A stretch of DNA of 64,000 nucleotides, from positions 620,001 to 684,000 of the forward strand of contig NZ_CP076022.1 in NCBI RefSeq assembly GCF_018622995.1, given 5' to 3'. Origin of the DNA: Arthrobacter jiangjiafuii. Its GTDB lineage: Bacteria; Actinomycetota; Actinomycetes; Actinomycetales; Micrococcaceae. Made by a program: the position numbers and the translations under genes. The notes beneath the pieces were generated by a model. That model searched no databases and was not told where the DNA came from. It saw nothing but the letters and a program-made list of their open reading frames with translations. Numbering within the stretch: position 1 is the first letter of the stretch; every line of letters begins with the position of its first letter. This document shows, piece by piece, positions 34,697 through 53,688 of the stretch.

Positions 34697-36187
34697 TCAG
34701 AATGGTGGAGGATCCGACTCGTACCCCTCGGGAACGGGAGAGCCCACTGGTGCTGGAGCAGAGCCTGGTGCAGTGGCGGGCGGTTTCGGAATTCCTGGCG
34801 GTTTCGAAACCAAGGCGAGGTGCGGATCGGTGCGGTAGGTCCGCCCACCCGGTGAGGTCCACTCGATAATCCCCGCTTCCGGTTGGCAGGCCTTCCAGAA
34901 CCCTTCGGTTTTGAACATGTGGTGCCGCCGGCAGAGGTGCTCGAGATTGTCGTGATCGGTTTTCCCGCCCTGCGCCCAGGGTCGGGTGTGGTCGATCTCG
35001 GAGATCACGGCGTTCGACCGGCACCCCGGGAACCGGCAGGTTCCGTCCCGTGCGCGCAGCCAGCGCTGAAGTCCGGCCGGGATCTTTCGTCGTCGGCCCA
35101 CCCTCAGGATTTCCTCAGTCTCGGGATCCCGTTCGACCGGTGTCCATTTCGCTGCTTCCCGGGCCATCCGGCGGGCGGTTTCCGGGCTGATGGGTCCGTA
35201 ACCATGCAACTCTGCCGGCTGTTCGTCCGCGCCGAAGAGGGTTTCGGCGTTGATCAGCACCAGGATCTCGCCCCGTGCCCGGTTGCTGTTGGTCTTTCCG
35301 CCGCCGCTGGGGGTTTTGCCGCACGAGGTATCCCGGTCGTCATGGTCCAGCAGCAGGTCCTCGAGAATGTCTGCCCGCAACTGATCCACCATCCGCGGGT
35401 CCCCGGCGGACTGCTCACCCCGGGCGGCCTTCGAAAGCTGAGTGAAGATCGCTTGCGCCTTCTCCGCGGGCAGGAACGCCGAGAGCCAGGACATTCCGTC
35501 ACAGCCCGGGTCCAGCACCACGCGGCGCTTCTCAAACGCCGTGCGTTGCCGTTTCTGAATCGTCTCCGGATATTTGTTCTCCCGCAGCCGCCGGGCCTTG
35601 ACCCGGAACTGGGAACCCGTCTGCCCCGCAACCGCCACCGCCAACAGTTCCGCTTCGAAGCCCGGCAGTTCACCGGCGGGAATGTTCTGGGACTGATCCA
35701 ACACCGCCTGAACATGTCCGTAGCTCAGCGCCCCGGACTCGAGTTTCGCGAGCGTGGCGGAGTGCGTGTCACAGAGGGTTCCGGCTTCGTTCATCCGCAT
35801 GGCAGCGGTGCCCGTGGGGACCCCGAGGATGGTCGCGGCTTCCTCGGCGGCGAGACTGAACGCCAAACCCGGCTCGAGTTTCCCTGATGCGAAGAACATT
35901 TCGTCCCGGAAGATGCCCTCGATCCGGTGCAGGACTTTGGCCTGCTGCGCCTGCACCCACCTGCCCAGCTGATCCAGCCGGGTCAACACCACCCCTGCCT
36001 GGTCCTGATCCAGAATTTCGACGCCCTGCAGGACCAAGGATCCGGTGAAGGAATCCAGGCCGGCGTCGAAAACCGACCGGCTGCGCTGCGCCGCGGTCGC
36101 GCCCGCCCCGCCACAACCGCCGTCGGCCCCACCGCCGCCGTCGTCGCCGCCGGCCTCGTTGCCGGGAAAAGTCCTGTCCTGATCCAT
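34697..36187 (-). CDS. DUF222/HNH endonuclease (13E12 repeat family)
   Basis: A 496-residue protein with a long helical DUF222 region (residues about 40-340) and a C-terminal HNH nuclease: CRFPGCRSNAVISEIDHTRPWAQGG, then HLCRRHHMFK. This layout is the actinobacterial 13E12-type HNH family, which is multi-copy in many genomes and linked with mobile DNA. The N-terminus is acidic and Gly-rich. A hairpin and a 26-bp tandem array lie upstream of its ATG. No partner gene is evident. Confidence 0.88.
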   Translation of the reverse strand: MDQDRTFPGNEAGGDDGGGGADGGCGGAGATAAQRSRSVFDAGLDSFTGSLVLQGVEILDQDQAGVVLTRLDQLGRWVQAQQAKVLHRIEGIFRDEMFFASGKLEPGLAFSLAAEEAATILGVPTGTAAMRMNEAGTLCDTHSATLAKLESGALSYGHVQAVLDQSQNIPAGELPGFEAELLAVAVAGQTGSQFRVKARRLRENKYPETIQKRQRTAFEKRRVVLDPGCDGMSWLSAFLPAEKAQAIFTQLSKAARGEQSAGDPRMVDQLRADILEDLLLDHDDRDTSCGKTPSGGGKTNSNRARGEILVLINAETLFGADEQPAELHGYGPISPETARRMAREAAKWTPVERDPETEEILRVGRRRKIPAGLQRWLRARDGTCRFPGCRSNAVISEIDHTRPWAQGGKTDHDNLEHLCRRHHMFKTEGFWKACQPEAGIIEWTSPGGRTYRTDPHLALVSKPPGIPKPPATAPGSAPAPVGSPVPEGYESDPPPF

Positions 36188-36238
36188 GTCTTCAGGCTTT
36201 CATCTGCCTCTGACATTTCCGGGTCAAAATCAGCCCAA

Positions 36239-36270
36239 AAGACCCCGAAAAGGGGCCTTTTCCGGGTCTT
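36239..36270. terminator. Strong hairpin upstream of the HNH gene
   Basis: AAGACCCCGAAAAGG (36239-36253) pairs with CCTTTTCCGGGTCTT (36256-36270) with one mismatch and a 2-nt loop; T-rich sequence flanks it on the minus strand. It lies between the PPK2 gene and the HNH gene, and may stop read-through from PPK2. Confidence 0.7.
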
Positions 36271-36305
36271 GAAATACCTGTCTTTTTGGACAGGACTACC
36301 TACCC

Positions 36306-36477
36306 GGGGCGTTCCCTTACCTACGAGGATCGCCGGTGCGCGACACCTACGAGGATCGCCGGTGCGCGACACCTACGAGGATCGCCGGTGCGCGACACCT
36401 ACGAGGATCGCCGGTGCGCGACACCTACGAGGATCGCCGGGGCGTTCCCTTACCTATGAGGATCGCCGGTGCGCGAC
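36306..36477. repeat. 26-bp tandem repeat array
   Basis: Four full 26-bp copies start at 36319, 36345, 36371 and 36397 (core ACCTACGAGGATCGCC, then GGTGCGCGAC), a truncated copy at 36423-36440 and one more at 36452-36477. A 13-bp block GGGGCGTTCCCTT precedes the first copy (36306) and the last (36439). Units are nearly identical, with no unique spacers between them. Confidence 0.92.
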
Positions 36478-36486
36478 GCAGCCGGA

Positions 36487-37542
36487 TCAGCCCTTGGGCT
36501 TGACCACGGGGAAACGGCCGCTGGGCTCCTCGTCTTCCTCGAAGTGGCTTGCAGCCGGCCCCACGATCAGGGGATCGGGCGCATGCACCAGTGAGGTGTC
36601 CTTGTTGGGGTAGTCCACGGAATGGAGGACCTGGCGCATGGCCTCAAGCCGCGCGCGCTTCTTGTCGTTGGACTTCACCACCGTCCACGGCGCATCACCG
36701 GTATCGGTGTAGAAGAACATGGCTTCCTTGGCTTCGGTGTAGTCATCCCACTTGTCCAGGCTGGCCAGGTCGGTGGGGGAGAGCTTCCACTGTTTCACCG
36801 GATCTGTTTCGCGGGCAGCAAACCGGGCCACCTGCTCGGCTCGGCCCACGGAAAACCAGAGTTTCGTGAGCAGCACACCCGAGTTCACCAACATGCGCTC
36901 CAACTCGGGCACTTCGCGCATGAACTCCAAATACTGCGCCGGCGTGCAGTACCCCATCACGCGTTCCACCCCTGCCCTGTTGTACCAGGACCGGTCCATC
37001 ATGACGATCTCACCACCGCTGGGAAGTCTGGCGATATACCGCTGGAAGTACCATTGCGTCCGCTCACTGTCGGTGGGCTTCTCCAGCGCCACGATCCGCG
37101 CACCGCGGGGATTGAGGTGTTCATTGAAACGCTTAATGGAACCGCCTTTGCCGGCGGCGTCACGGCCCTCGAAGATGAGGAGCATTTTCTGCCCGGTGTC
37201 CTTCACCCAGAGCTGCATTTTCAAGAGCTCGATCTGCAGTGCCCGCTTCTGCCGTTCGTAGCTGCGCCGCGACATTTTTTTGTCATACGGATAGTTGTGC
37301 CGCCAGGCGTCATCGTCGGCGTTTTCCTTCATTTTCTTGGTCTTGATTTTGAGCTCGCGCAGTTCGTCCAGCTCGCTGGTGTAGTCCTCGGTCAGAGCTG
37401 ACGGCTGGCCATTCCCGTCGGGTGATATCCCGTCAGCTGCTGCATCACGGTCGGCCGGCTTGCTGCCGTTCCCTGTGGCCGCGGCCTTTGCCTTGTTCGT
37501 AGCCTCGGTAGCCTCGGTAGCCGTGGTCTTGTTCGTAGCCAT
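36487..37542 (-). CDS. ppk2: Polyphosphate kinase 2 family protein
   Basis: A 351-residue protein. The N-terminal 50 residues are low-complexity (ATEATEATNK repeats). The kinase core starts near 80 with WRHNYPYDKKMSRRSYERQK; Walker A is FEGRDAAGKGG (residues 124-134), and Walker B is MDRSWYNRAGVERVMG. The closing VDYPNKDTSLVHAPDPLIVG is typical of class I PPK2, which transfers phosphate between polyphosphate and nucleotides. AGGGAGA precedes the ATG at 37542; the upstream extension is rejected. Confidence 0.92.
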   Translation of the reverse strand: MATNKTTATEATEATNKAKAAATGNGSKPADRDAAADGISPDGNGQPSALTEDYTSELDELRELKIKTKKMKENADDDAWRHNYPYDKKMSRRSYERQKRALQIELLKMQLWVKDTGQKMLLIFEGRDAAGKGGSIKRFNEHLNPRGARIVALEKPTDSERTQWYFQRYIARLPSGGEIVMMDRSWYNRAGVERVMGYCTPAQYLEFMREVPELERMLVNSGVLLTKLWFSVGRAEQVARFAARETDPVKQWKLSPTDLASLDKWDDYTEAKEAMFFYTDTGDAPWTVVKSNDKKRARLEAMRQVLHSVDYPNKDTSLVHAPDPLIVGPAASHFEEDEEPSGRFPVVKPKG

Positions 37543-37789
37543 AACATCTCCCTGCGCTGACGGTACTAACGAATCTACGTCCCAGTGTTGGGGGAAGGAA
37601 GGGGCGCCGGCTAGGGAAAACGGCGGACGACGGCGGGAGCATAGCGATAGTTTCCTCCTGCGGCGGGGTGCCACTCACCGGAGTTTCGGGAGAACAGCGG
37701 CAGGAGCAGACCGAAATCCGGCACAGAACCGGCAGCGACCCGAGAGTCGCGGAATTTCCGCACCGGAAAATCACCCATAATAAATACCG

Positions 37790-38770
37790 ATGACTTCTCT
37801 ACATTCCAAGGTTCTGTCCCTTATAGCGCTGCCCGTCATTCTGTTCGGTTCCGCCGCCTGCACGCCGCTGGCCGAAACCGAAACCGGAAACGCCTCCTCT
37901 TCGATCTCCGCCACGGCCGAGGCCCCAGCCCCAGCTGAAGCGGCCGGGCCGGCCGAAGCCCCGGAGCCGGCCGGACCGGCAGCAGCGGGAACCGCACTGG
38001 AACAACTCGCAACCCTGCCGATCAAGGGCCGCGCCCCCAAGACCGGTTATGACCGGGATCAGTTCGGACCGGCCTGGGCCGACATCGACCACAACGGGTG
38101 CGATACCCGCAACGACATCCTGGCCCGCGATCTCACCGCCGTCGTCTATAAGGACGGAACCAAGGAGTGCGTGGTGGCCTCGGGCAGCTTCGCCGACCCC
38201 TACACCGGGACCACCATCAGTTTTGTGCGCGGCAACGAGACCAGCACCGCCGTCCAGATCGACCACGTCGTGGCGCTCTCCGATGCCTGGCAGAAGGGTG
38301 CCCAGCAGCTCTCTGCCGAGGACCGCCGCCAGCTTGCCAACGACCCGCTGAACCTGATGGCCGCCGACGGTCCTGCCAATGGTGCCAAGTCGGATTCCGA
38401 CGCCGCCAGCTGGCTGCCGCCAAACAAGGCCTTCCGCTGCGGCTACGTTGCGACGCAGACAGCCGTCAAGGCCAAGTACAGCCTGTGGATGACCCAGGCC
38501 GAGCACGACGCGATCGCCTCCGTCCTGTCCACCTGTCCGGACCAGCCGGTGCCCGACGGCGCCGGGTTGCCTCCGGCGGTTGCCGTTGCCGGCGCGGATG
38601 CAGGGGCAGAGGATGTTGCGGCTGATCCCGCAGCCGGTGTCGGCAGCGCACCGGTGTATGCGAACTGCACTGCGGTGAAGGCCGCCGGGGCAGCTCCGAT
38701 CCGGCCCGGCGACCCGGGCTGGGATCCGAAGTTCGACGGCGACGGCGACGGCGAGGGCTGCACCTCCTAG
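37790..38770 (+). CDS. Secreted HNH (DUF1524) nuclease with excalibur motif
   Basis: A 326-residue exported protein with lipobox GSAAC near residue 24 and a Pro/Ala/Glu-rich linker. The DUF1524-type HNH region carries VQIDHVVALSDAWQKGA, then DPLNLMAADGPANGAKSD and ASWLPP, as in small secreted HNH nucleases. The C-terminus is an excalibur-like calcium-binding motif (YANCTAVKAAGAAPI, ending in FDGDGDGEGC). It probably degrades extracellular DNA; this is an inference from the family. The gene is monocistronic. Confidence 0.85.
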   Translation: MTSLHSKVLSLIALPVILFGSAACTPLAETETGNASSSISATAEAPAPAEAAGPAEAPEPAGPAAAGTALEQLATLPIKGRAPKTGYDRDQFGPAWADIDHNGCDTRNDILARDLTAVVYKDGTKECVVASGSFADPYTGTTISFVRGNETSTAVQIDHVVALSDAWQKGAQQLSAEDRRQLANDPLNLMAADGPANGAKSDSDAASWLPPNKAFRCGYVATQTAVKAKYSLWMTQAEHDAIASVLSTCPDQPVPDGAGLPPAVAVAGADAGAEDVAADPAAGVGSAPVYANCTAVKAAGAAPIRPGDPGWDPKFDGDGDGEGCTS

Positions 38771-38910
38771 CTACACCTGTCCACAATTGCAGGACCGCAT
38801 TCTTCCCACCGTCAAACTCGGGACGGCCGGCAAGCGTTGAGGTCCTGCCGGGCGCGTAATCGGAAACATTTGTTCTTTCTTTCGCAATGTCACGGTGTCA
38901 GGATCGGGGC

Positions 38911-39915
38911 ATGACTTCTTCCCTCACCATCGGTTATGCGGCAATGCTGGAGCAGTTTCATCCCACGGAGGCGGTGGCACTGGCTGAATACGCCGAGAGC
39001 AAGGGCTTTTCGGGCGTGATGGCGGCGGACCATTTCCAGCCGTGGGTGCCGGCCCAGGGCCAGAGCTCATTTGTCTGGAACGTCCTGGCTGCATTGGGGG
39101 AGCGCACCAAAGGGGATATCGGCCCCGGCGTCACCGCGCCGACTTTCCGCTGGCATCCGGCCATGGTGGCGCAGGCCTCGGCCACGCTCGCGGCCATGTA
39201 TCCCGGCCGGCACTGGCTCGGGCTGGGATCCGGCGAGGCCCTGAACGAACACATCACCGCGCAGTACTGGCCCGAACCGCCCGAACGCATCAACCGGATG
39301 TTCGAGGCCATCGAGATCATCACCAAGCTTTTCACCGCGTCGCTGGCCGGCAAGGATGTGCGGCACAAGGGTGAGTTCTACACGATGGAATCCACCCGGC
39401 TGTGGACTATGCCCGAAACGCCGCCGGAAATCCTGGTGGCCACGGCCGGACCGGTCACGGCAAAACGGGCCGGCCGGCACGCCGACGGCCTGATCACGGT
39501 GGGCGCGCCGCTCGAGAAGATCGGGATGCTCTTTGACCGGTTCCACGCCGGTGCGCGCGAGGCGGGCAAGGTCCCGGACACCATGCCCAAGGTCCTGCAG
39601 CTGCACATGAGCTGGGCCGAGACGGATGAGGAAGCGCTCACCAACGCCATGGTGGAGTGGCCCAACGGCGGCATGAAGTTCCCCAAGGCGGATATCCGTT
39701 CTCCCTTCGAGCTGGAGCAGATGGCCAAGCTGGTCCGGCCGGAGGACTTTGAGGGACGGATGGTGATTTCCAGTGACCCCGATATCCACCGCGCCTACAT
39801 CCAGAAGTTCGTGGACCTGGGATTCGACCGGATCTACCTGCACAACGTGGGACGGAACCAGCGGGACTGGATCGACGTGTTCTCCCGCAGCGTGCTCCCG
39901 GCCCTGAAGCGCTGA
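38911..39915 (+). CDS. F420-dependent LLM-class oxidoreductase (TIGR03557-like)
   Basis: A 334-residue TIM-barrel protein with [20 protein letters not shown] at the N-terminus, [26 protein letters not shown] and the F420 contact regions typical of glucose-6-phosphate-dehydrogenase-like F420 enzymes (FGD group, TIGR03557 type). The substrate is unknown. The ATG at 38911 has a weak AGGAT site; an earlier in-frame ATG at 38887 is possible. The next gene, cofE, starts 4 bp after its stop, and this pairing links both to the coenzyme. Confidence 0.88.
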
Positions 39916-39919
39916 CCCC

Positions 39920-40789
39920 ATGCGCGCCGTGACACTGTTTGTGCTGCCGGGGATCGGCGAGATCACGCCGGGCACGGATGTGGCGGCGGTGATCCTGGCA
40001 GCGGCAGGCTCAGCGCCCGACGCCGCGCTGCAGCCCGGCGATATCCTCGCCGTCACCTCCAAGATCGTGTCCAAGGCCGAGGGCCGGCAGGTCCTGGCAG
40101 CGGACCGGGAGCAGGCGATCACCGACGAAACGGTGCGTGTGGTGGCCAGCCGGAAACATGCCGGCGGGGTGACCCGGATCGTGGAGAACAAGCTGGGGAT
40201 CGTGGCCGCGGCCGCCGGGGTGGACAACAGCAACACCCCGGCCGATACCGTGCTGCTGCTGCCCGTGGATCCCGACGCCTCCGCCCGCGCCCTGTGTGCC
40301 CGGTTGCGCCGGGAACTGGGGTTCGACGTCGGCGTCATCATCACCGACACCCTCGGCCGGGCCTGGCGCGAGGGGCAGACCGACGCCGCCATCGGCGCCG
40401 CCGGGATAGAGGTGCTGACGGACCTGCGCGGCACGCCGGACAGCTTCGGCCAGGAGATGAGAGCGACCATGACCGCAGTGGCTGACGAAATCGCAGCCGC
40501 CGCGGACCTCGTCAAGGGCAAGACCAGCCAGTGCCCGGTGGCGGTACTGCGCGGCCTGCCGGAGCTGGTGCTTCCCGGGGGGACCGGTGCCGAACCTGTT
40601 CCGGGCCGGGCTGAACGGGCCGAACCTGTTCCGGGCCGGGCTGATGCAGGCGCCAGGTCGCTGATCCGACCGGCAGCGCAGGATCTGTTCCGGCAAGGCA
40701 GCGCCGAAGCCTGGCGCGATGGCTACGCGGCGGCCTGCCGGGATGCGGGCCTGCCGGTGCCGGTTTTTCAGGAGGATGAGCCCTCGTAG
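39920..40789 (+). CDS. cofE: Coenzyme F420-0:L-glutamate ligase
   Basis: A 289-residue protein of the CofE family, with the conserved [49 protein letters not shown] and [20 protein letters not shown] stretches. It adds glutamate to F420-0 to complete the coenzyme tail. Only the ligase domain is present; the nitroreductase domain of mycobacterial FbiB is absent. An extra segment with a 30-bp direct repeat (40590-40644) encodes two EPVPGRA units before the C-terminus. Its end overlaps the tail of the convergent ABC transporter ATPase gene by 22 bp. Confidence 0.93.
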
Positions 40790-41640
40790 CTGAGCCCGGC
40801 CCGGTCTGTCGCCTCGCTGGCCGGATCCCGGCCTGCTTGCGGAAGAGACAGTGCGATCAGCGGCCGGCCGGTGGCCGGATGCACCAGCACGTCCGCCTGC
40901 ACCCCATAGACCTGCCGGATCAGAGCGGGGCTTAACACGGTGCGCGGTTCCCCGGCCGCCACCACCGTGCCCCGGTGCAGGACAATCACATGGTCACAGT
41001 GTGCTGCGGCGTGCGTCAGGTCATGCAGGGCGGCGACGACGGCGATGCCCCGTCCGGCGAGCTGCCGCATCAGCTGCAGGGTGGCCAGCTGGGCAAACGG
41101 ATCCAAATGGTTGGTGGGTTCGTCCAGCAGCAGCAGTTGCGGCTGCTGCGCCAGGGCCCGGGCCAGCTGGACACGCTGCCGCTGACCGCCGGACAGCTCG
41201 CCGTAGAGACGGTCCCTCAGTTCGGGCACTCCGGCGGATTCCAGCGCGGCCAGCACCGCGTCGTCGTCCCCGCTGTTCCCAAAGCCCAGCAGCGGCCGGT
41301 GCGGCATCGTCCCCAGCGACACCACTTCGCGGACGGTCAGGGGAACCCCGGTCCCGGATTCCTGATCGACCAGCGCCGCAATGCGCGCCCGTTCCCGGCG
41401 CGGCCGGCGCAGCAGGTCGCTGCCCTGCCACTGAATGGTGCCCCGGCGCGCGGGCACCACCCCGGCCAGTGCCCGCAGCAGCGTGGACTTCCCGGCGCCG
41501 TTGGGGCCCACCAGGGCGGACAGGGCGCCGGCCGGAACCGTACAGTCCACGCCGTCGACCACCAGTGTGCCGCCCAGGCTCACCGCCAGGTCGGAAGCCC
41601 GCAAGCCGTCGTCGGGCCCACCGCCCGTCCCCGCGCTCAT
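40768..41640 (-). CDS. ABC transporter ATPase, proposed F420-0 importer
   Basis: A 290-residue FecE-type ATPase with Walker [13 protein letters not shown], signature [15 protein letters not shown] and Walker [14 protein letters not shown]. It is the last gene of a minus-strand operon with its permease and binding protein, overlapping the permease stop by 4 bp. To my knowledge, this three-gene set beside cofE corresponds to the proposed F420-0 transporter families TIGR03868, TIGR03869 and TIGR03873. Without that context it would be called a siderophore/cobalamin-type importer. Confidence 0.85.
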
Positions 41641-42698
41641 GCCCCGCCCTTCCGCCGCGCCAACACCCAGGCAAAGACCGGGGCGCCGATCACCGCGGTC
41701 ACCACGCCCACGGGCAGTTCCCGGGGTTCAAACACAAACCGGGCGGCCGTATCCGCCCAGATCAGGAAGACCGCGCCCAACAGGGCCGACAACGGCAGCA
41801 GCGCCCGGTGCCCGGGTCCGGCCACCAGCCGGACCAGGTGCGGAAACACCAGGCCGATAAAACCGATCGCCCCGCTGACCGACACCATGGCACCGGTCAG
41901 CAGGGCCGTTGCCGCCAGCAGTGTCCACCGCGCCGCCGGAACATGGATGCCCAGGGCGGAAGCGGCGTCGTCCCCGAACGCGAAACCGTCCAGGAGGCGG
42001 GCGGCCGCGAGCAGCGGAATGCCCACGGCCAGCAGTGCGCCGGCGGCGATCCCGGCACTGGACCACTGGGTGCCGCTGAGCGAGCCGAGCAGCCAGCCCA
42101 GGATGTTCCGGTAGGAATCTCCGGTGGCCGTCCAAAAAATCACCAGGCTGGTCAGGGAGCTGCCCAGGGAGGAGACCGCCACACCGGCCAGGACGGTCCG
42201 CGACGGCGTCAGCCCTCCGGCCAGCCGTGCCAGCAGCAGGGTGGCGGCGAGCGCGGCCAGCGCACCGATGAATGCCGCGAGCGGCAGCAGCAGCTGCAAC
42301 CCCAGCAGCAGCACGCAGACCGCACCCAAGGAGGCCCCCGAGGACAGGCCCAGCAGATACGGATCAGCCAGCGCGTTACGGGTCAGTGCCTGCATCACCG
42401 CGCCGCTGACCGCCAGCCCGGCACCTACCGCGGCGGCCGTCAGCACGCGGGGCAGGCGCAGCTCCCAGATGATGCCGTCCTGCAGCGCCGACAGCGGGCT
42501 GGTGCCGATGCCGAGGTGGGACAGCATGCTGCCAAATGCGTCGGCCACGCTGATATCTGCCGGACCCACCGCCGCTGCCGCTGTTATGGACAGGACCAGT
42601 ACCGCGGCCAGCACCGCCGTCGCCGGTCCCGTTCGGATCGAACGCCGCGGCGCCGGTCGCACGACGGCGCCCTGACGGGAGGCCACAGCGGCGCTCAC
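41637..42698 (-). CDS. ABC transporter permease (FecCD family), proposed F420-0 importer
   Basis: A 353-residue permease with about ten helices and the FecCD pattern: GAVMQALTRNALADPYLLGLSSGASLGA, then GAIGFIGLVFPHLVRLVAGPGHRALLP near the end. It forms the membrane channel for the ATPase encoded downstream. The start is GTG, overlapping the stop of the binding-protein gene by 4 bp. The assignment to F420-0 rests on the neighbouring cofE and F420-dependent gene. Confidence 0.85.
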   Translation of the reverse strand: MSAAVASRQGAVVRPAPRRSIRTGPATAVLAAVLVLSITAAAAVGPADISVADAFGSMLSHLGIGTSPLSALQDGIIWELRLPRVLTAAAVGAGLAVSGAVMQALTRNALADPYLLGLSSGASLGAVCVLLLGLQLLLPLAAFIGALAALAATLLLARLAGGLTPSRTVLAGVAVSSLGSSLTSLVIFWTATGDSYRNILGWLLGSLSGTQWSSAGIAAGALLAVGIPLLAAARLLDGFAFGDDAASALGIHVPAARWTLLAATALLTGAMVSVSGAIGFIGLVFPHLVRLVAGPGHRALLPLSALLGAVFLIWADTAARFVFEPRELPVGVVTAVIGAPVFAWVLARRKGGA

Positions 42699-43753
42699 GG
42701 CAGCACCGCCAGCTGTTCGGCGAGGTCCGCCACCGCTTCGGCATTGCGAACCCCGGCCTCGGCGGCGGCAAAGGGCAGGACCAGATAGCGGTTATTGACC
42801 ACTGCATCCATGCCCGCCGTCGCCGGATGTGAGGCGAGCAGCTCCTTCTTGGATTCGGCTGTGTTCCGGTCTGCGTCCACCAGGATGATGACGTCGGGAT
42901 TGGCAGCCACCACGGTTTCCCAGCTCAGCGAGGCCCAGGAATCCTGCACGTCTGCGGTTATGTTCTGCAGCCCGAGGGTGTCCATCATCATCTGCGGGGC
43001 ACCCAGCCCGGCCCCTGCATACGGAGTGTCCCGGCCGGACGAGAACCAGAAGGCAGTCCTTCCGCCGCCGGCCGGTTCAATGCCCTCCACGGTTGCGCGC
43101 TGCTGGGCGACCAGCTTGGCGGCGGCCTCGGAAGCGCCAAAAACGGCACCGGCCTCGGTGATGCCGGCAAAAACGTCTTCGAAGTCCAGCTTCTGCACCG
43201 GCTTGCCCGTCTCCCGGCAGGCATGCGGGGAGACATAGCTGCCGATGCCGAGCGAAGCCAGAAAATCCCGTTCACCGGCGGTATCGGCACTGAGGTTCGA
43301 TTCCCAGCCGGCATAGATGAAGTCCGGTTCCAGGTCCAGGACCGGCTCCTGGGACGGCGCGGAGTCGGAGAGGATGTTCAGCGGCGGCGCATCGGCGGCC
43401 AGCGCTGCGGGGAGCGGGCCGTCCAGGAATGCCGCACCGGCCACCTTGCTGCCCAGGCCCAGGGCCAGCAGGGTTTCGACCGCCGTGGACTTGATCGCCA
43501 CAATCCGTTCCGGCGGCGCCGACAGGGTCACCTCGGTGCCGCAGTTCATCACGGTCAGCGGGTATCCCGTCGAACCGGCACCACCGGAACCACTGGAACC
43601 ACCGGCGGTAGCGGAAGCCGGCGGCGTCGTCGTCGAACCCGAACCGGCAGGGGAGCCCGGTGCCGCCGGGGCGGAGGCCGCAGAGCAGCCGGCGAGCCCG
43701 GCCGCCATGGCGGCCAAGAGCAGCGAAACGGCAGGAAAAAGGGATCGGTTCAT
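42695..43753 (-). CDS. ABC transporter substrate-binding lipoprotein, proposed F420-0 binder
   Basis: A 352-residue lipoprotein with signal peptide and lipobox GLAGC near residue 22, a Gly/Ser/Thr linker, then a TroA/FecB-like fold: ERIVAIKSTAVETLLALGLG, LEPDFIYAGWESNLS, and VAANPDVIILVDAD. It captures the substrate outside the membrane. The ATG at 43753 is preferred over a longer frame. It is the first gene of the transporter operon, and position suggests F420-0 as ligand; iron-siderophore or cobalamin binding cannot be excluded from the family alone. Confidence 0.82.
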   Translation of the reverse strand: MNRSLFPAVSLLLAAMAAGLAGCSAASAPAAPGSPAGSGSTTTPPASATAGGSSGSGGAGSTGYPLTVMNCGTEVTLSAPPERIVAIKSTAVETLLALGLGSKVAGAAFLDGPLPAALAADAPPLNILSDSAPSQEPVLDLEPDFIYAGWESNLSADTAGERDFLASLGIGSYVSPHACRETGKPVQKLDFEDVFAGITEAGAVFGASEAAAKLVAQQRATVEGIEPAGGGRTAFWFSSGRDTPYAGAGLGAPQMMMDTLGLQNITADVQDSWASLSWETVVAANPDVIILVDADRNTAESKKELLASHPATAGMDAVVNNRYLVLPFAAAEAGVRNAEAVADLAEQLAVLP

Positions 43754-44112
43754 GATTCCTCGCAGCTGGTAGGGACATCGGAGGGATCCATGGCCCAAAT
43801 CCAGACCAGCTGTACCGGCCATACCCGGCCGGTGATCTATTCGAGGAAGGCTAGCACTGCATTGTTTCCGATGCTGGCGTTTGCCCTGGAACGGCTACCC
43901 CGGCGGCGAATTAAATAACCGGTCGCCAAATACCCTTGCGGGCACCGGCGGTACTGGTTGAAGGTAAAGGGGCCGCGGCATGCCGATCCTGCTTTACCCT
44001 CCAGCTTTTACGCCGCGGAAATGCCGGGGAAATCTCTAGCCCAAAGACTGGGAACGGCCCTTCAACCGGCCGATCGGAACCGCGGCCGGGTAAGCCGCTT
44101 AGAGGAGGCACA
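43754..44112. other. Divergent intergenic region
   Basis: These 359 bp lie between the divergent transporter and ureidopropionase operons and carry no convincing gene. They must contain both promoters. A perfect 7-bp inverted repeat ACCGGCC / GGCCGGT (43814-43820 and 43827-43833) sits about 60 bp upstream of the binding-protein ATG and could be an operator. I see no cobalamin riboswitch. Confidence 0.5.
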
Positions 44113-44961
44113 ATGACAATCATCCGTACCGCCCTGACCCAGACCACCTGGACCGGGGATGAGGAATCCATGGTCGCCAAGCACGAGGACTTTGTCCGCA
44201 AAGCCGCGGCCGAGGGCGCGCAGATCATTTGTTTCCAGGAGCTTTTCCACGGACCGTATTTCGGAATCGTGCAGGACAACAAGTATTACGACTACGCGCA
44301 GAAGGTGCCGGGGCCGCTGACCGAACGGTTCTCGAAACTCGCCGCGGAGCATCACATGGTGATCATCCTGCCCGTGTATGAGGAGGAACAACCCGGGGTC
44401 CTCTACAACACGGCCGCCGTGATCGACGCCGACGGAACCTACCTGGGGAAGTACCGCAAAAACCACATTCCGCACGTCGAGAAGTTCTGGGAGAAGTTCT
44501 ACTTCCGGCCGGGGAACCTGGGCTGGCCGGTTTTCGACACCGCTGTCGGGGCCGTGGGTGTGACCATCTGCTATGACCGGCACTTCCCCGAGGGCTGGCG
44601 GGTCCTGGGCCTGAACGGCGCCCAGCTCGTCTTCAATCCCAATGCCTCCAAACCCGGCCTGTCCAACCGGCTGTGGGAACTGGAACAGCCCACCGCCGCC
44701 GCGGCCAACGGCTACTACGTGGTGGTCCCGAACCGGGTGGGCGCCGAAACCAACGAATTCGGCGACGAAGCCGTGGATTTCTACGGGACGTCCTATATTG
44801 CCGATCCGCAGGGCAACTACGTCGGCAATCTCGGTGCCCGCGACAGCGAGGAACTGATGATCCGGGACCTGGACATGGACCTGGTGCGCACCGCCCGGAA
44901 CAGCTGGCAGTTCTACCGCGACCGCCGCCCGGACGCCTACACGCCCATCACCAACCCGTAG
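44113..44961 (+). CDS. Beta-ureidopropionase / N-carbamoyl amidohydrolase
   Basis: A 282-residue nitrilase-superfamily amidase with the catalytic triad Glu43 (FQELFHGPYF), Lys116 (YRKNHIPH) and Cys153 (TICYDRHFPE). The long HVEKFWEKFYFRPGN insert is typical of beta-ureidopropionase. It converts N-carbamoyl-beta-alanine to beta-alanine, CO2 and ammonia, the last step of reductive pyrimidine breakdown, or acts on a related N-carbamoyl amino acid. AGAGGAGG precedes the ATG. It opens the operon with the dihydropyrimidinase gene, 45 bp downstream. Confidence 0.9.
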   Translation: MTIIRTALTQTTWTGDEESMVAKHEDFVRKAAAEGAQIICFQELFHGPYFGIVQDNKYYDYAQKVPGPLTERFSKLAAEHHMVIILPVYEEEQPGVLYNTAAVIDADGTYLGKYRKNHIPHVEKFWEKFYFRPGNLGWPVFDTAVGAVGVTICYDRHFPEGWRVLGLNGAQLVFNPNASKPGLSNRLWELEQPTAAAANGYYVVVPNRVGAETNEFGDEAVDFYGTSYIADPQGNYVGNLGARDSEELMIRDLDMDLVRTARNSWQFYRDRRPDAYTPITNP

Positions 44962-45006
44962 CCACTGCCGGCTGGACGGAAACACACCAGGGACAAGGGA
45001 GTCGTT

Positions 45007-46428
45007 TTGAGCACAACACTGATCACCGGGGGAACAGTCGTGACCTCCACCGGCCGCAGCGAAGCGGACGTCCTTATCGACGGGGAGAGGATCGCCGCGG
45101 TGCTGGCGCCGGGATCCACCCTCCTGGGCCACGACCTTGCCGGCTCAGTGGACACCGTCCTGGATGCCGCCGGCAAATACGTGGTGCCCGGCGGCATCGA
45201 CGCCCATACCCACATGCAGATGCCCTTCGGCGGCACCGAAGCCTCCGACACCTTCGAAACCGGCACCCGTGCCGCAGCCTGGGGCGGCACGACGACGATT
45301 GTGGACTTCGCGATCCAGCGTTACGGGGAGCGGGTGATGGACGGCCTGGCCCAGTGGCACGAAAAGGCGGCAGGGGAGTGCGCCGTCGACTACGGGTTCC
45401 ACCAGATCGTGGGCGATGTCAACGACGACTCGCTCAAGGCCATGGCCGGACTCATTGATGAAGGCGTGTCCAGCTACAAGCTGTTCATGGCCTATCCCGG
45501 GGTCTTCTACAGTGACGACGCCCAGATCTACAAGGCCATGCGGGTGGGCGCGGACACCGGGCTGATGACCATGATGCACGCGGAGAACGGGCCGGCCATC
45601 GACGCCATGGTCAGCGAACTGCTGGCCCAGGGCAAAACCGATCCCTACTATCACGGGGTGGCGCGCGCCTGGCAGATGGAGGAGGAAGCCACGCACCGGG
45701 CGATCATGCTGGCCAACCTCACCAACGCACCCCTCTACGTTGTGCATGTCTCCGCCAAACAGGCTGTCGAGCAGCTCGCGGCTGCCCGGGACAACGGGCA
45801 GAACGTCTTCGGGGAGACCTGCCCGCAGTACCTGTACCTGAACCTGGAGGACCAGCTCGGCGCCGAGGGCTTCGAAGGGGCCAAATGGGTCTGCTCCACG
45901 CCGCTCCGCTCCAAGCACGAACACCACCAGGACCACATGTGGCAGTCGCTGCGCACCAACGACATCCAGATGGTCGCCACCGACCACTGCCCGTTCTGCA
46001 TGAAAGGCCAAAAGGACATGGGTGTGGGCGACTTCTCCAAGATCCCCAACGGCATCGGCTCGGTGGAGCACCGCATGGACCTGATGTACCAGGGCGTGGT
46101 GGACGGGAAAATCAGCCTGGAACGCTGGGTGGAGATCACCAGCACGACGCCGGCACGCATGTTCGGCATGTATGGCACCAAGGGCCTGATCGCCCCGGGA
46201 GCCGACGCCGACGTCGTCATTTACGACCCGGCGGGCCACACCTCGATCGGCCTGGAAAAAACCCACCACATGAACATGGACTACTCCGCCTGGGAAGGCT
46301 ACGAGATCGACGGGCACGTGGACACCGTGCTCTCCCGCGGCCGGATCCTGATCAACGACAACGAATACCTCGGCGCCAAGGGCCACGGCCGGTATGTGCG
46401 CCGGGCTCCCAGCCAGTACCTGATCTGA
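45007..46428 (+). CDS. hydA: Dihydropyrimidinase / hydantoinase
   Basis: A 473-residue cyclic amidohydrolase with its metal ligands in place: His67 and His69 (DAHTHM), Lys158 (SSYKLFM), His191 (MMHAEN), His247 (VVHVSA) and Asp326 (ATDHCPF). It opens dihydrouracil or hydantoin rings to the N-carbamoyl product used by the preceding enzyme. The start is TTG with AAGGGAG just upstream. The order ureidopropionase-dihydropyrimidinase-LLM oxidoreductase suggests one degradation route. Confidence 0.93.
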   Translation: MSTTLITGGTVVTSTGRSEADVLIDGERIAAVLAPGSTLLGHDLAGSVDTVLDAAGKYVVPGGIDAHTHMQMPFGGTEASDTFETGTRAAAWGGTTTIVDFAIQRYGERVMDGLAQWHEKAAGECAVDYGFHQIVGDVNDDSLKAMAGLIDEGVSSYKLFMAYPGVFYSDDAQIYKAMRVGADTGLMTMMHAENGPAIDAMVSELLAQGKTDPYYHGVARAWQMEEEATHRAIMLANLTNAPLYVVHVSAKQAVEQLAAARDNGQNVFGETCPQYLYLNLEDQLGAEGFEGAKWVCSTPLRSKHEHHQDHMWQSLRTNDIQMVATDHCPFCMKGQKDMGVGDFSKIPNGIGSVEHRMDLMYQGVVDGKISLERWVEITSTTPARMFGMYGTKGLIAPGADADVVIYDPAGHTSIGLEKTHHMNMDYSAWEGYEIDGHVDTVLSRGRILINDNEYLGAKGHGRYVRRAPSQYLI

Positions 46429-46461
46429 GCAGCGGTTGACCTTGGAGCGAACCCAGCCAGT

Positions 46462-46473
46462 CTCTATATAGAG
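46462..46473. promoter_or_regulatory. Perfect 12-bp palindrome CTCTATATAGAG at the ribosome binding site
   Basis: The palindrome overlaps the GAGGAG ribosome binding site of the LLM oxidoreductase gene, in the 57-bp gap after hydA. As RNA it could fold and mask the site; as DNA it could be an operator. Either reading is inference. Confidence 0.4.
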
Positions 46474-46485
46474 GAGCGGAACAGT

Positions 46486-47502
46486 ATGGAATTTGGAGCA
46501 GTCCTGCAGTGCAATCCGCCCGCGGCGCGGACGGTGGCACTGGCCAAGCTGGCAGAGGAGCACGGGTTCGAGTACGTGTGGACCTTCGACTCCCACATCC
46601 TGTGGCAGGAACCGTACGTTCTCCACAGCCGCATCCTCGCGGAAACCCGAACCATCACGGTGGGTCCCATGGTCACCAATCCGGCGACCAGGGACTGGAC
46701 CGTCACCGCATCGACGTTCGCCACCCTGAACCAGATGTACGGGAACCGGACGGTGTGCGGAATCGGCCGGGGCGACTCGGCGCTGCGGGTGAGCGGCGGA
46801 TCCCCGACCACGCTGAAGACGCTGCGCGAGTCGATCCATGTGATCCGGGAGCTGGCCAACTCCCGTGCGGTGGAATACAACGGCACCACCCTGCAGCTGC
46901 CGTGGAGCACCGGATCGACGCTGGAGATGTGGGTGGCGGCCTACGGCCCGCTGGCGCTGAAGCTGGCTGGTGAGGTGGGGGATGGGTTCATCCTGCAGCT
47001 GGCGGACCTCGACATCGCGGAATGGATGATCGCTACCGTCCGCTCCGCTGCTGCCGCAGCCGGACGCGACCCGATGTCGATCAAGTTCTGCGTGGCCGCT
47101 CCTATGTATATAGGGGAGGACTGGGAGCATATGCGCCAGCAGTGCCGCTGGTTCGGCGGCATGGTGGGCAACCACGTTGCGGACATCGTGGCCAAGTATG
47201 GGGCCGACGCCGCGGTGCCGCAGGCGCTGACCGATTACATCGCCGGCCGGGAAGGCTACGACTACAACGAGCACGGCCGGGCCGGCAACACCCACACCGC
47301 CTTTGTGCCCGACGAGATCGTGGACCGGTTCTGCCTGCTGGGCACCGCGGAAGCGCACATTGAAAAGCTGGAAAAGCTCAAGGCACTGGGGGTCACCCAG
47401 TTCGCCGGGTACCTGCAGCATGACAACAAGGAAGAGACACTGCGGGTCTACGGCGAAACGGTCATCCCGGCCCTGCGCGAGCAGGTCAGTGCGAGGGGAT
47501 AG
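46486..47502 (+). CDS. LLM-class oxidoreductase (TIGR03842-like)
   Basis: A 338-residue luciferase-like TIM-barrel protein (MEFGAVLQCNPPAARTVALA, then EYVWTFDSHILWQEPY and CGIGRGDSALRVSGGSP) resembling the CPS_4043-type family of LLM oxidoreductases, predicted to use F420 or a flavin. It is the third gene of the pyrimidine/hydantoin operon, so a role on a pyrimidine or hydantoin ring is plausible, either as an F420-linked reductase or a RutA-like monooxygenase; neither is shown by sequence. GAGGAG lies about 10 bp before the ATG. The C-terminal segment FAGYLQHDNKEETLRVYGE is typical of the family. Confidence 0.85.
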   Translation: MEFGAVLQCNPPAARTVALAKLAEEHGFEYVWTFDSHILWQEPYVLHSRILAETRTITVGPMVTNPATRDWTVTASTFATLNQMYGNRTVCGIGRGDSALRVSGGSPTTLKTLRESIHVIRELANSRAVEYNGTTLQLPWSTGSTLEMWVAAYGPLALKLAGEVGDGFILQLADLDIAEWMIATVRSAAAAAGRDPMSIKFCVAAPMYIGEDWEHMRQQCRWFGGMVGNHVADIVAKYGADAAVPQALTDYIAGREGYDYNEHGRAGNTHTAFVPDEIVDRFCLLGTAEAHIEKLEKLKALGVTQFAGYLQHDNKEETLRVYGETVIPALREQVSARG

Positions 47503-47613
47503 CAGCGCTTGGCAAGGGCCCCAGGGCCGGGCGCCGGCAGGGGTCTAACGCTGCGGGTCTGAAGCGCTTCTCCCTGCGGGAATCAGGCCTCCGGGAGGGC
47601 CGTCGGAGCCGAG

Positions 47614-47642
47614 TTGCGGCCGGGCCCAAACCTGTGTAAAGT
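47614..47642 (+). promoter_or_regulatory. Candidate rrn promoter P1
   Basis: TTGCGG, a 17-bp spacer and TAAAGT, about 110 bp after the LLM oxidoreductase stop and 440 bp before 16S. Spacing is ideal and the elements are fair matches to a housekeeping promoter. Confidence 0.45.
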
Positions 47643-47813
47643 CTTCTAAGTCGCCGCGGCCGGGAGTTGAGAAACTTCTGAGAGCATGGCGGCCAAACCC
47701 CACCAAAAACATCCTGGTGATCCACCCTGCGCCTCACGGCCCGGGAGCGGAAAGCCGGGGATTTTGCGTGGGATTATCCGGACAAAATGAAGCAGACCGC
47801 GGAATATCCCGAA

Positions 47814-47843
47814 TTGCCAAATACGGTCCGGATGGAATAGAAT
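47814..47843 (+). promoter_or_regulatory. Candidate rrn promoter P2
   Basis: TTGCCA, an 18-bp spacer and TAGAAT, the best promoter match upstream of 16S, in an AT-rich tract. Transcription would begin near 47850, giving a leader of about 235 nt that contains the boxA-like sequence. Confidence 0.55.
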
Positions 47844-47911
47844 AAAGAAACACTGCAGCGAAGAGAAAAGAAAAACAAGTAATTGTTTTCTCCGAGTATT
47901 TCGTATGCATC

Positions 47912-47934
47912 TGTTGTTTGAGAACTCAATAGTG
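47912..47934 (+). promoter_or_regulatory. boxA-like antitermination element in the rrn leader
   Basis: TGTTGTTTGAGAACTCAATA, followed by GTG, matches the conserved actinobacterial rrn boxA region, as in mycobacteria. A near-identical copy is in the 16S-23S spacer (49984-50006). Confidence 0.75.
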
Positions 47935-47980
47935 TGCCAAGTTTATTGATACCAATTTATTTTAATTGGTTGAACTGGTT

Positions 47981-48015
47981 CTTCCGCCCACCCCGTGGGT
48001 GGGAAGGACTTTTTT
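47981..48015 (+). terminator. Terminator-like hairpin in the rrn leader
   Basis: The segment CTTCCGCCCACC - CCGT - GGGTGGGAAGG can fold, with a bulge, and is followed by TTTTTT (48010-48015). Lying between boxA and 16S, it may act as an attenuator that the antitermination complex passes, or form part of RNase III processing structure. Confidence 0.4.
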
Positions 48016-48086: not shown

Positions 48087-53276
<5,190 letters not shown>

Positions 53277-53568
53277 CCACAACCTCACCTGGACGGACAC
53301 GACTTCAAACGGTCCGTCAAAGTATAAAGGGTGTTGTTAGATCATGTGCTGCTTGCGTCCACTATGTGGTTCCCGGATAACAAACCCGTGTGGTTTGTCA
53401 CCGTGGAACCGGCACCAACGTACCCTTGCGGGTGTGTTTGTGCCGTATAATTACAACTGTTGTTTGTTGTGATGAGTATATTGCATCGAAACACTACGCG
53501 TGTTTTTGTTGTGACCATTGATTTCCCCTCACCCTGGGGTTTGTTTGCCGGGGTGGTGTGGGTGGAAG

Positions 53569-53688
53569 GGTTACGGCGGTCATAGCGTGGGGGAAACGCC
53601 CGGTCCCATTCCGAACCCGGAAGCTAAGACCCACAGCGCCGATGGTACTGCATCCGGGAGGATGTGGGAGAGTAGGTCACCGCCGGAC
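53569..53688 (+). rRNA. rrf: 5S ribosomal RNA
   Basis: About 120 nt, GGTTACGGCGGTCATAGCG to AGTAGGTCACCGCCGGAC, with the conserved CCCATTCCGAACCCGGAAGC loop. The 5' and 3' ends pair (ACGGCGGT with ACCGCCG). It is 292 bp after 23S; that gap holds processing sequence and no gene that I can see. Confidence 0.95.

Follow-up and report, generated by a model that had tools for sequence, protein, structure and literature searches.

A window of 64,000 nucleotides from the complete genome of Arthrobacter jiangjiafuii (contig NZ_CP076022.1, positions 620,001 to 684,000, forward strand; "the window" below means this whole stretch, and coordinates are counted from its first letter) contains a five-gene cassette that probably serves to scavenge a deazaflavin cofactor. 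Judged from sequence, the strain would import F420-0 or short-tailed F420 through a three-gene ABC transporter and finish it with its own CofE, a reading to which we assign a probability of roughly 70%. The cassette is made up as follows:

38911-39915, plus strand: LLM-class oxidoreductase of the FGD-like TIGR03557 family, a probable F420-dependent dehydrogenase or reductase
39920-40789, plus strand: cofE, F420-0:L-glutamate ligase without the FbiB C-terminal domain (TIGR01916)
40768-41640, minus strand: ABC transporter ATPase, closest to TIGR03873 (its best family) and below the cut-off of that family
41637-42698, minus strand: FecCD-type permease (TIGR03869)
42695-43753, minus strand: lipoprotein-like substrate-binding protein (TIGR03868)

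Open reading frames and sequence confirm the five genes and the layout described in an initial annotation of this DNA—the LLM gene and cofE lie 4 bp apart on the plus strand and converge with a minus-strand importer operon, in which the binding protein and permease genes, and the permease and ATPase genes, overlap by 4 bp each. The 3' ends of cofE and the ATPase gene additionally overlap by 22 bp. Pfam domains in the cassette (FecCD, Peripla_BP_2, ABC_tran, F420_ligase, and Bac_luciferase) agree with the FecCD-type transporter proposed there, and the identity of cofE is upheld: its product scores 205 bits against TIGR01916 (cut-off 180.65) and, aligned to the solved CofE structures 7uld and 2g9i, retains the AG(I/V)D.SN and IITDT.GR segments. 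The expectation that the transporter would match three F420-0 import models was borne out for two of them, the permease reaching 467.6 bits to TIGR03869 (cut-off 437.35; runner-up family BtuC, 235.3) and the binding protein 403.1 bits to TIGR03868 (cut-off 392.4; runner-up EitA, 126.0), while the ATPase fell below the cut-off of TIGR03873 though this was its best match. All three proteins thus score best to F420-0 models, which supports the annotation's choice of these over iron or cobalamin families. The N-terminus of the binding protein (...AGLAGCS...) we take to be a lipoprotein-type leader; a solved member of its family, the periplasmic binding protein 4mlz of Jonesia denitrificans, shares 46% identity and has a title that names no ligand. 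Within the 3' part of cofE (40590-40644), a 25-bp sequence occurs twice as an exact direct repeat whose copies are in frame and 30 bp apart, and it yields a doubled AEPVPGRA segment; the TIGR01916 match stops early, covering profile positions 3-223 of 244. No RNA element or riboswitch was found at gathering threshold in window positions 36000-48000.

The genome is a single contig of 3,593,579 bp, and, in agreement with the check that the initial annotation called for, it has no match to cofH (FbiC), cofD, or cofC at E <= 0.001 (cofG's own model, TIGR03550, was not run); on gene content, the strain seems unable to build F420. These pathway gaps, together with the family scores, support the earlier suggestion that the strain may import F420-0 and complete F420 itself. 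To place this pattern among relatives, we searched 149 genomes of the family with TIGR03868, cofH, cofE, cofD, and cofC. TIGR03868 was over its cut-off in 12 genomes, corresponding to seven of the eight from the window's genus and five from another genus; in 14 control genomes it gave weak matches in nine and none over the cut-off. All 12 carriers encode cofE over its cut-off as against 6 of 137 non-carriers (Fisher p = 1e-13, uncorrected for relatedness), these six—out of 18 cofE-bearing genomes in all—being G140, G015, and the F420 makers G030, G066, G082, and G096, of which G066 and G096 have a cofH match that is full length yet below the curated cut-off. G131, a congeneric genome without the transporter (best TIGR03868 match 20 bits), is also without cofE. 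The remaining pathway genes were rare among the carriers, with cofH, cofD, and cofC each over cut-off in one of the 12 (G085) and none of them in the other 11; weak partial matches in these 11 (cofH at about 32 bits in G062 and G122, cofD at 20-23 bits in eight) are taken to be other radical-SAM and CofD-like proteins.

Two of the non-carriers have partial pathways. G015 (L054 6184-9727; 130 contigs) encodes cofC, cofD, and cofE and has no cofH or TIGR03868 match at E <= 0.001; candidate sources of its FO are another importer, diffusion, or an assembly gap. In G140 (L053 8341-14583), a TIGR03868 relative of 360 bits, under the cut-off, is divergent to cofD, cofC, cofE, and a gene for an NADPH-dependent F420 reductase (npdG; TIGR01915 at 209 bits, cut-off 149.8). 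For cofH, this genome has a sole match of 19 bits (E 6e-4) in an assembly of 90 contigs with 6% contamination, and its gene content makes the locus a compact candidate for FO scavenging.

A survey of 394 genomes from the class gave a wider view of what carriers lack. TIGR03868 was over its cut-off in 33 of them, with carriers at 403-493 bits and the next lower match at 328, a gap into which the 360 bits of G140 fall. At E <= 1e-50, cofH was present in 271 of the 394 genomes, and these comprised none of the 33 carriers and 271 of the 361 others (Fisher p = 7e-19, again uncorrected for relatedness). Each of the 32 class carriers other than the window genome had cofE over the cut-off as well as a cofD match (30 over the cut-off, G332 at 202 bits, and G356 in two pieces); G166, which has cofH and an under-cut-off transporter, was searched for cofD and cofE alongside them but not counted. 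Both surveys pooled give 44 distinct carriers, with cofE in all 44, cofH in one, and cofD in 33. Since 32 of these 33 combine cofD and cofE with no cofH match, most carriers lack the FO-making step only and should need FO; the commonest pathway gap would thus be FO synthase alone, with FO as the missing compound, whereas in the window's lineage the gap reaches cofC and cofD, and the missing compound would be F420-0 or a later form. The premise of the initial annotation, that carriers are without the other F420 synthesis genes, therefore holds for 11 of the 44 and fails for the 33 with cofD. A second group of binding proteins, at about 270-330 bits to TIGR03868 (G347, G330, G311, G356, G249, G166, and others), occurs partly in genomes that also have a true TIGR03868 member.

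We further compared the best 80 of at least 545 confirmed stretches (hereafter named loci), from Arthrobacter, Cellulomonas, Actinotalea, Agromyces, Cryobacterium, Leifsonia, Brevibacterium, Jiangella, Promicromonospora, and other genera. Of these, 32 have cofD in the flank; in the other 48 genomes, a search at E <= 1e-20, with both controls positive, placed cofD elsewhere in 21 and found it lacking in 27, several of which are metagenome-assembled genomes (MAGs). In flanks of up to 10 kb, cofE accompanies the transporter in 24 of the 27 cofD-lacking loci and cofC in none, as against 26 and 26 of the 53 cofD-bearing loci. An LLM homologue (counted down to 33% identity) shares the strand of cofE and is no more than 500 bp from it in 22 of the 27 and 19 of the 53. 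In 19 of the 80 loci, cofD lies 3' of the ATPase gene, on the same strand and within about 300 bp.

Gene order was read in 106 loci with a mappable binding protein and ATPase, the mapping being confined to homologues of the query genes. For the class carriers, neighborhoods were covered in 18 of 32. Fifteen loci have the order ATPase > cofD > < cofC < cofE < LLM, 27 (window included) the order ATPase > < cofE < LLM, and 13 begin ATPase > cofD with another or a cut-off continuation; the remaining 51 have other arrangements or are truncated where the flank ends. An upstream amidase-hydantoinase-LLM block, described for the window below, is found whole in 9 of the 15 loci with the first order and in 18 of the 27 with the second, and on this synteny the window looks like the same island as the FO-type loci, minus cofD and cofC at their usual place. 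For L118, L131, L161, and L179, all among the 27, cofD is encoded elsewhere, and for G085 on a separate contig; L066 and L128 are judged to represent a single genome, that of Arthrobacter gandavensis. The distance between ATPase and cofE varies—overlapping in the window, 27-208 bp in the other loci of the Micrococcaceae survey, and up to several kb in others—and further genes may lie there.

Twelve of the 80 named loci belong to Alphaproteobacteria (Devosia, Pelagibacterium, and one unplaced MAG), six of them isolates by title. In the MAG of Pelagibacterium sp. SP179 (L174 7909-13936), six genes run in one direction: an LLM gene with 77% identity to that of the window, cofE, the transporter trio, and another LLM gene. 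Devosia isolates show the same order with a first LLM protein only about 33-36% identical. The SP179 cassette is probably a transfer between phyla, the alternative for a MAG record being a binning error. No cofH was found in the flanks of the Devosia and Pelagibacterium loci (no genome-wide cofH search was made in the 80 named genomes), so their status as scavengers derives from the genome-wide absence of cofD at E <= 1e-20 and from cofH-free flanks only.

Trees were built by quick search with SH-aLRT support. The binding-protein tree had 112 rows (the window, all 80 named loci, 11 of the 12 further loci from the family survey, and 20 of the 30 from the class survey, omitting L011, which is the genome of L128, and class loci L085, L088, and L090-L097); the CofE tree had 77, after rows of <200 aa, with stops, or repeated were dropped, and alignment A2 had 41. 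Presence of cofD requires 11 changes on the binding-protein tree, at least seven of these by well-supported branches. The window's clade joins Brevibacterium both there (support 82) and in the CofE tree (95), and the Brevibacterium loci in question have cofC and cofD. For this clade, the placement fits a cassette that moves as a unit and loses (or regains) cofC and cofD.

Enzymes that could use the cofactor are also predicted, by family membership, in the window genome: the LLM protein beside cofE and a TIGR00026 protein of the PF04075 family (F420H2-dependent quinone reductase; C1:711518-711901) that is over the TIGR00026 cut-off and matches solved deazaflavin nitroreductases. The LLM protein scores 276.6 bits to TIGR03557 (cut-off 210.4), and its solved relatives are 9hav, titled "Luciferase family protein" (427 bits), followed by FGD 5lxe and 3b4y (188 and 186 bits); on these grounds it is likely F420-dependent. 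With the F420 glucose-6-phosphate and sugar-6-phosphate dehydrogenases, FGD and FSD, covered in the accessible part of PMC6279831, it shares TIGR03557 membership and alignment to FGD 5lxe over its length; it differs in lying far under the cut-off of the FGD equivalog TIGR03554 (208.6 bits against 420) and is not a member of it. PF04075 was detected in 6 of the 149 family-survey genomes, and each of the six, the window genome among them, is a carrier from the window's genus. According to the available text of PMC3034190, Arthrobacter genomes published by 2010 had no annotated sequences of FDR-A, the family of Ddn.

Taken together, the observations (which genes are present, which pathway genes are missing, co-occurrence, synteny, and fold) lead us to infer the substrate, direction, and physiological role of the system. 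Outside the cell, the lipoprotein binding protein would capture an F420 precursor, which the FecCD-type permease and the ATPase would then carry in; CofE would add glutamates to give F420 that is retained inside, where the neighboring LLM enzyme and the Ddn-like reductase encoded elsewhere in the genome could use it. With CofC and CofD both missing from the window genome, the compound taken up would already have to carry the phospholactyl group, as F420-0 and short-tailed F420 do.

Several results count against this reading. The ATPase, at 329.4 bits, has TIGR03873 as the top of 190 families and is nonetheless below its cut-off of 372.4, so that we file it as closest to the family and not as a member; in seven related cassettes, TIGR03873 is likewise the best family of every ATPase, with five below the cut-off, including both from Arthrobacter, and those of Cellulomonas denverensis and Actinotalea sp. 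K2 above it. In raw bits, the LLM protein matches the FMN family TIGR03885 better (306.3, below the cut-off of 398.7) than TIGR03557, and so the F420 dependence claimed for it in the initial annotation, upheld by TIGR03557 and its FGD relatives, is likely rather than certain. PF04075 is absent, among the 149 genomes, from the same-genus carrier G080 and the five carriers of the second genus; it is absent as well from the four makers G030, G066, G082, and G096. G085 combines the importer with a full pathway (cofH, cofD, and cofC all over cut-off, and a second cofE). The 33 of 44 carriers with cofD point to FO rather than F420-0, which means that for the TIGR03868 family at large the substrate is not settled as F420-0. 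Finally, no column of the binding protein cleanly separates the 75 rows with cofD from the 37 without. The latter have more K/R at several columns (54% vs 8% at column 239, for example) and a mean net charge of -24.4 vs -33.7, but we rejected the idea that a substrate shift can be read from the binding protein: across seven independent pairs, the average tally for the net-charge label was 2.0 agreements, 0.1 disagreements, and 4.9 pairs without a difference, and that for the K/R-count label was 1.0 agreements and 1.1 disagreements, leaving at most a clade signal. The repeated changes in cofD on the tree and the lack of a separating column suggest instead that the importer would recognize the deazaflavin-ribityl head that these compounds share.

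A broader proposal, whose chances we regard as about even, is that TIGR03868/69/73 form a family of general deazaflavin importers rather than one specific to F420-0. Its main job in Actinomycetes would be to supply FO to genomes with CofC, CofD, and CofE and without the radical-SAM FO synthase; several lineages, including Arthrobacter, would then have dropped cofC and cofD and moved to F420-0, the cassette would have crossed into Alphaproteobacteria, and soil communities would exchange F420 precursors in the manner of a B vitamin. If true, many of the actinobacteria classed by their cofD and cofE content as producing or using F420 cannot make the cofactor alone and depend on the FO or F420-0 of others, making F420 a shared resource; the proposal would also account for F420-dependent enzymes encoded by genomes that lack FO synthase, and would point to a candidate importer.

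These same distributions bear on the alternatives. If the importer carried FO only in all carriers, Arthrobacter would use FO itself, as a cofactor or photolyase antenna, and its cofE would be a leftover; FO does fit the family at large, given cofD in 33 and cofH in one of the 44 carriers, and can replace F420 in some enzymes according to the available text of PMC11917521, but a leftover should decay, and cofE is over its cut-off in every carrier, including the 11 without cofD, and sits in the flank of 24 of the 27 cofD-lacking named loci, which makes this account unlikely. Quite improbable, too, is an importer that carries F420-0 in all carriers while FO diffuses into those with cofD. FO accumulates in culture supernatants, as the accessible parts of PMC11917521 and PMC11104420 describe, and can at least leave cells, and G015, with cofC, cofD, and cofE and neither cofH nor a TIGR03868 match, suggests that FO may enter without the importer; the placement of cofD right after the ATPase gene in 19 of 80 named loci, however, links the transporter to a CofD substrate, and for the window strain the prediction is identical to that of F420-0 import with CofE finishing. 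A chance neighbor of cofE that imports a siderophore, heme, or cobalamin is very improbable. The transporter does resemble BtuFCD-type and heme importers of the FecCD superfamily in fold and domain make-up, and its structural neighbors are 4n01, 5cr9, and, at lower scores, heme-binding proteins and BtuF; it differs from them in its lower scores to their families (BtuC 235 bits, BtuF 20 bits) against best scores to F420-0 families for all three proteins, and in its co-occurrence with cofE in all 44 surveyed carriers, one of which has cofH.

An F420-0 transporter was reportedly proposed in 2010, and the notes to models TIGR03868, TIGR03869, and TIGR03873 are said to record that most founding genomes lacked all synthesis genes except cofE. 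To this putative importer (NCBIfam, hypothetical equivalogs) the window corresponds in its three genes beside cofE and in two of three proteins over the cut-offs, and differs in its ATPase and in the cofD that 33 of the 44 carriers here also have. The cassette type is thus known as a proposal, of which the window is a further member; in the literature as far as it was accessible, we did not find reported that most carriers lack FO synthase only, that cofD is part of some transporter operons, or that cassettes occur in Alphaproteobacteria. Our search, with most subscription journals outside its coverage, found no paper naming the three models and, in titles and the openings of abstracts, none on an F420-0 or FO importer; a search on 9hav likewise gave no result. 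In the accessible part of an F420 review (PMC8498797), the word "transporter" occurs once, where it refers to a possible exporter of 3PG-F420, and "uptake" and "scaveng-" do not occur. Supernatants of organisms that produce F420 typically contain FO, as much as 2.6 umol/L in flasks (available text of PMC11917521), and FO was found in that of Mycetohabitans rhizoxinica (available text of PMC11104420), so a supply of FO is real; for F420-0, no supply in nature was found documented in the passages covered.

Three conserved neighbors lie beyond the binding protein:

44113-44961, plus strand: amidase, closest to the AguB family (TIGR03381, 250.6 bits, under the cut-off of 410.25)
45007-46428, plus strand: dihydropyrimidinase/hydantoinase (TIGR02033, 546.7 bits, over the cut-off)
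46486-47502, plus strand: second LLM oxidoreductase (TIGR03842 family, 585.6 bits, over the cut-off)

The amidase adjoins the cassette in 11 of the 12 family-survey carriers, window included, the twelfth (G105) being at a contig end. In G096 (L067 2364-12896), the amidase-hydantoinase-LLM block stands beside a full F420 synthesis set (LLM, cofD, cofE, and FbiC), and from this adjacency the block may be a user of F420. Elsewhere in the window, positions 37790-38770 encode a protein that looks secreted and combines a GmrSD C-terminal nuclease-type domain with an Excalibur calcium-binding domain, and a complete rRNA operon follows downstream of the cassette block at 48087-53688 (16S 48087-49614, 23S 50111-53280, and 5S 53572-53688).

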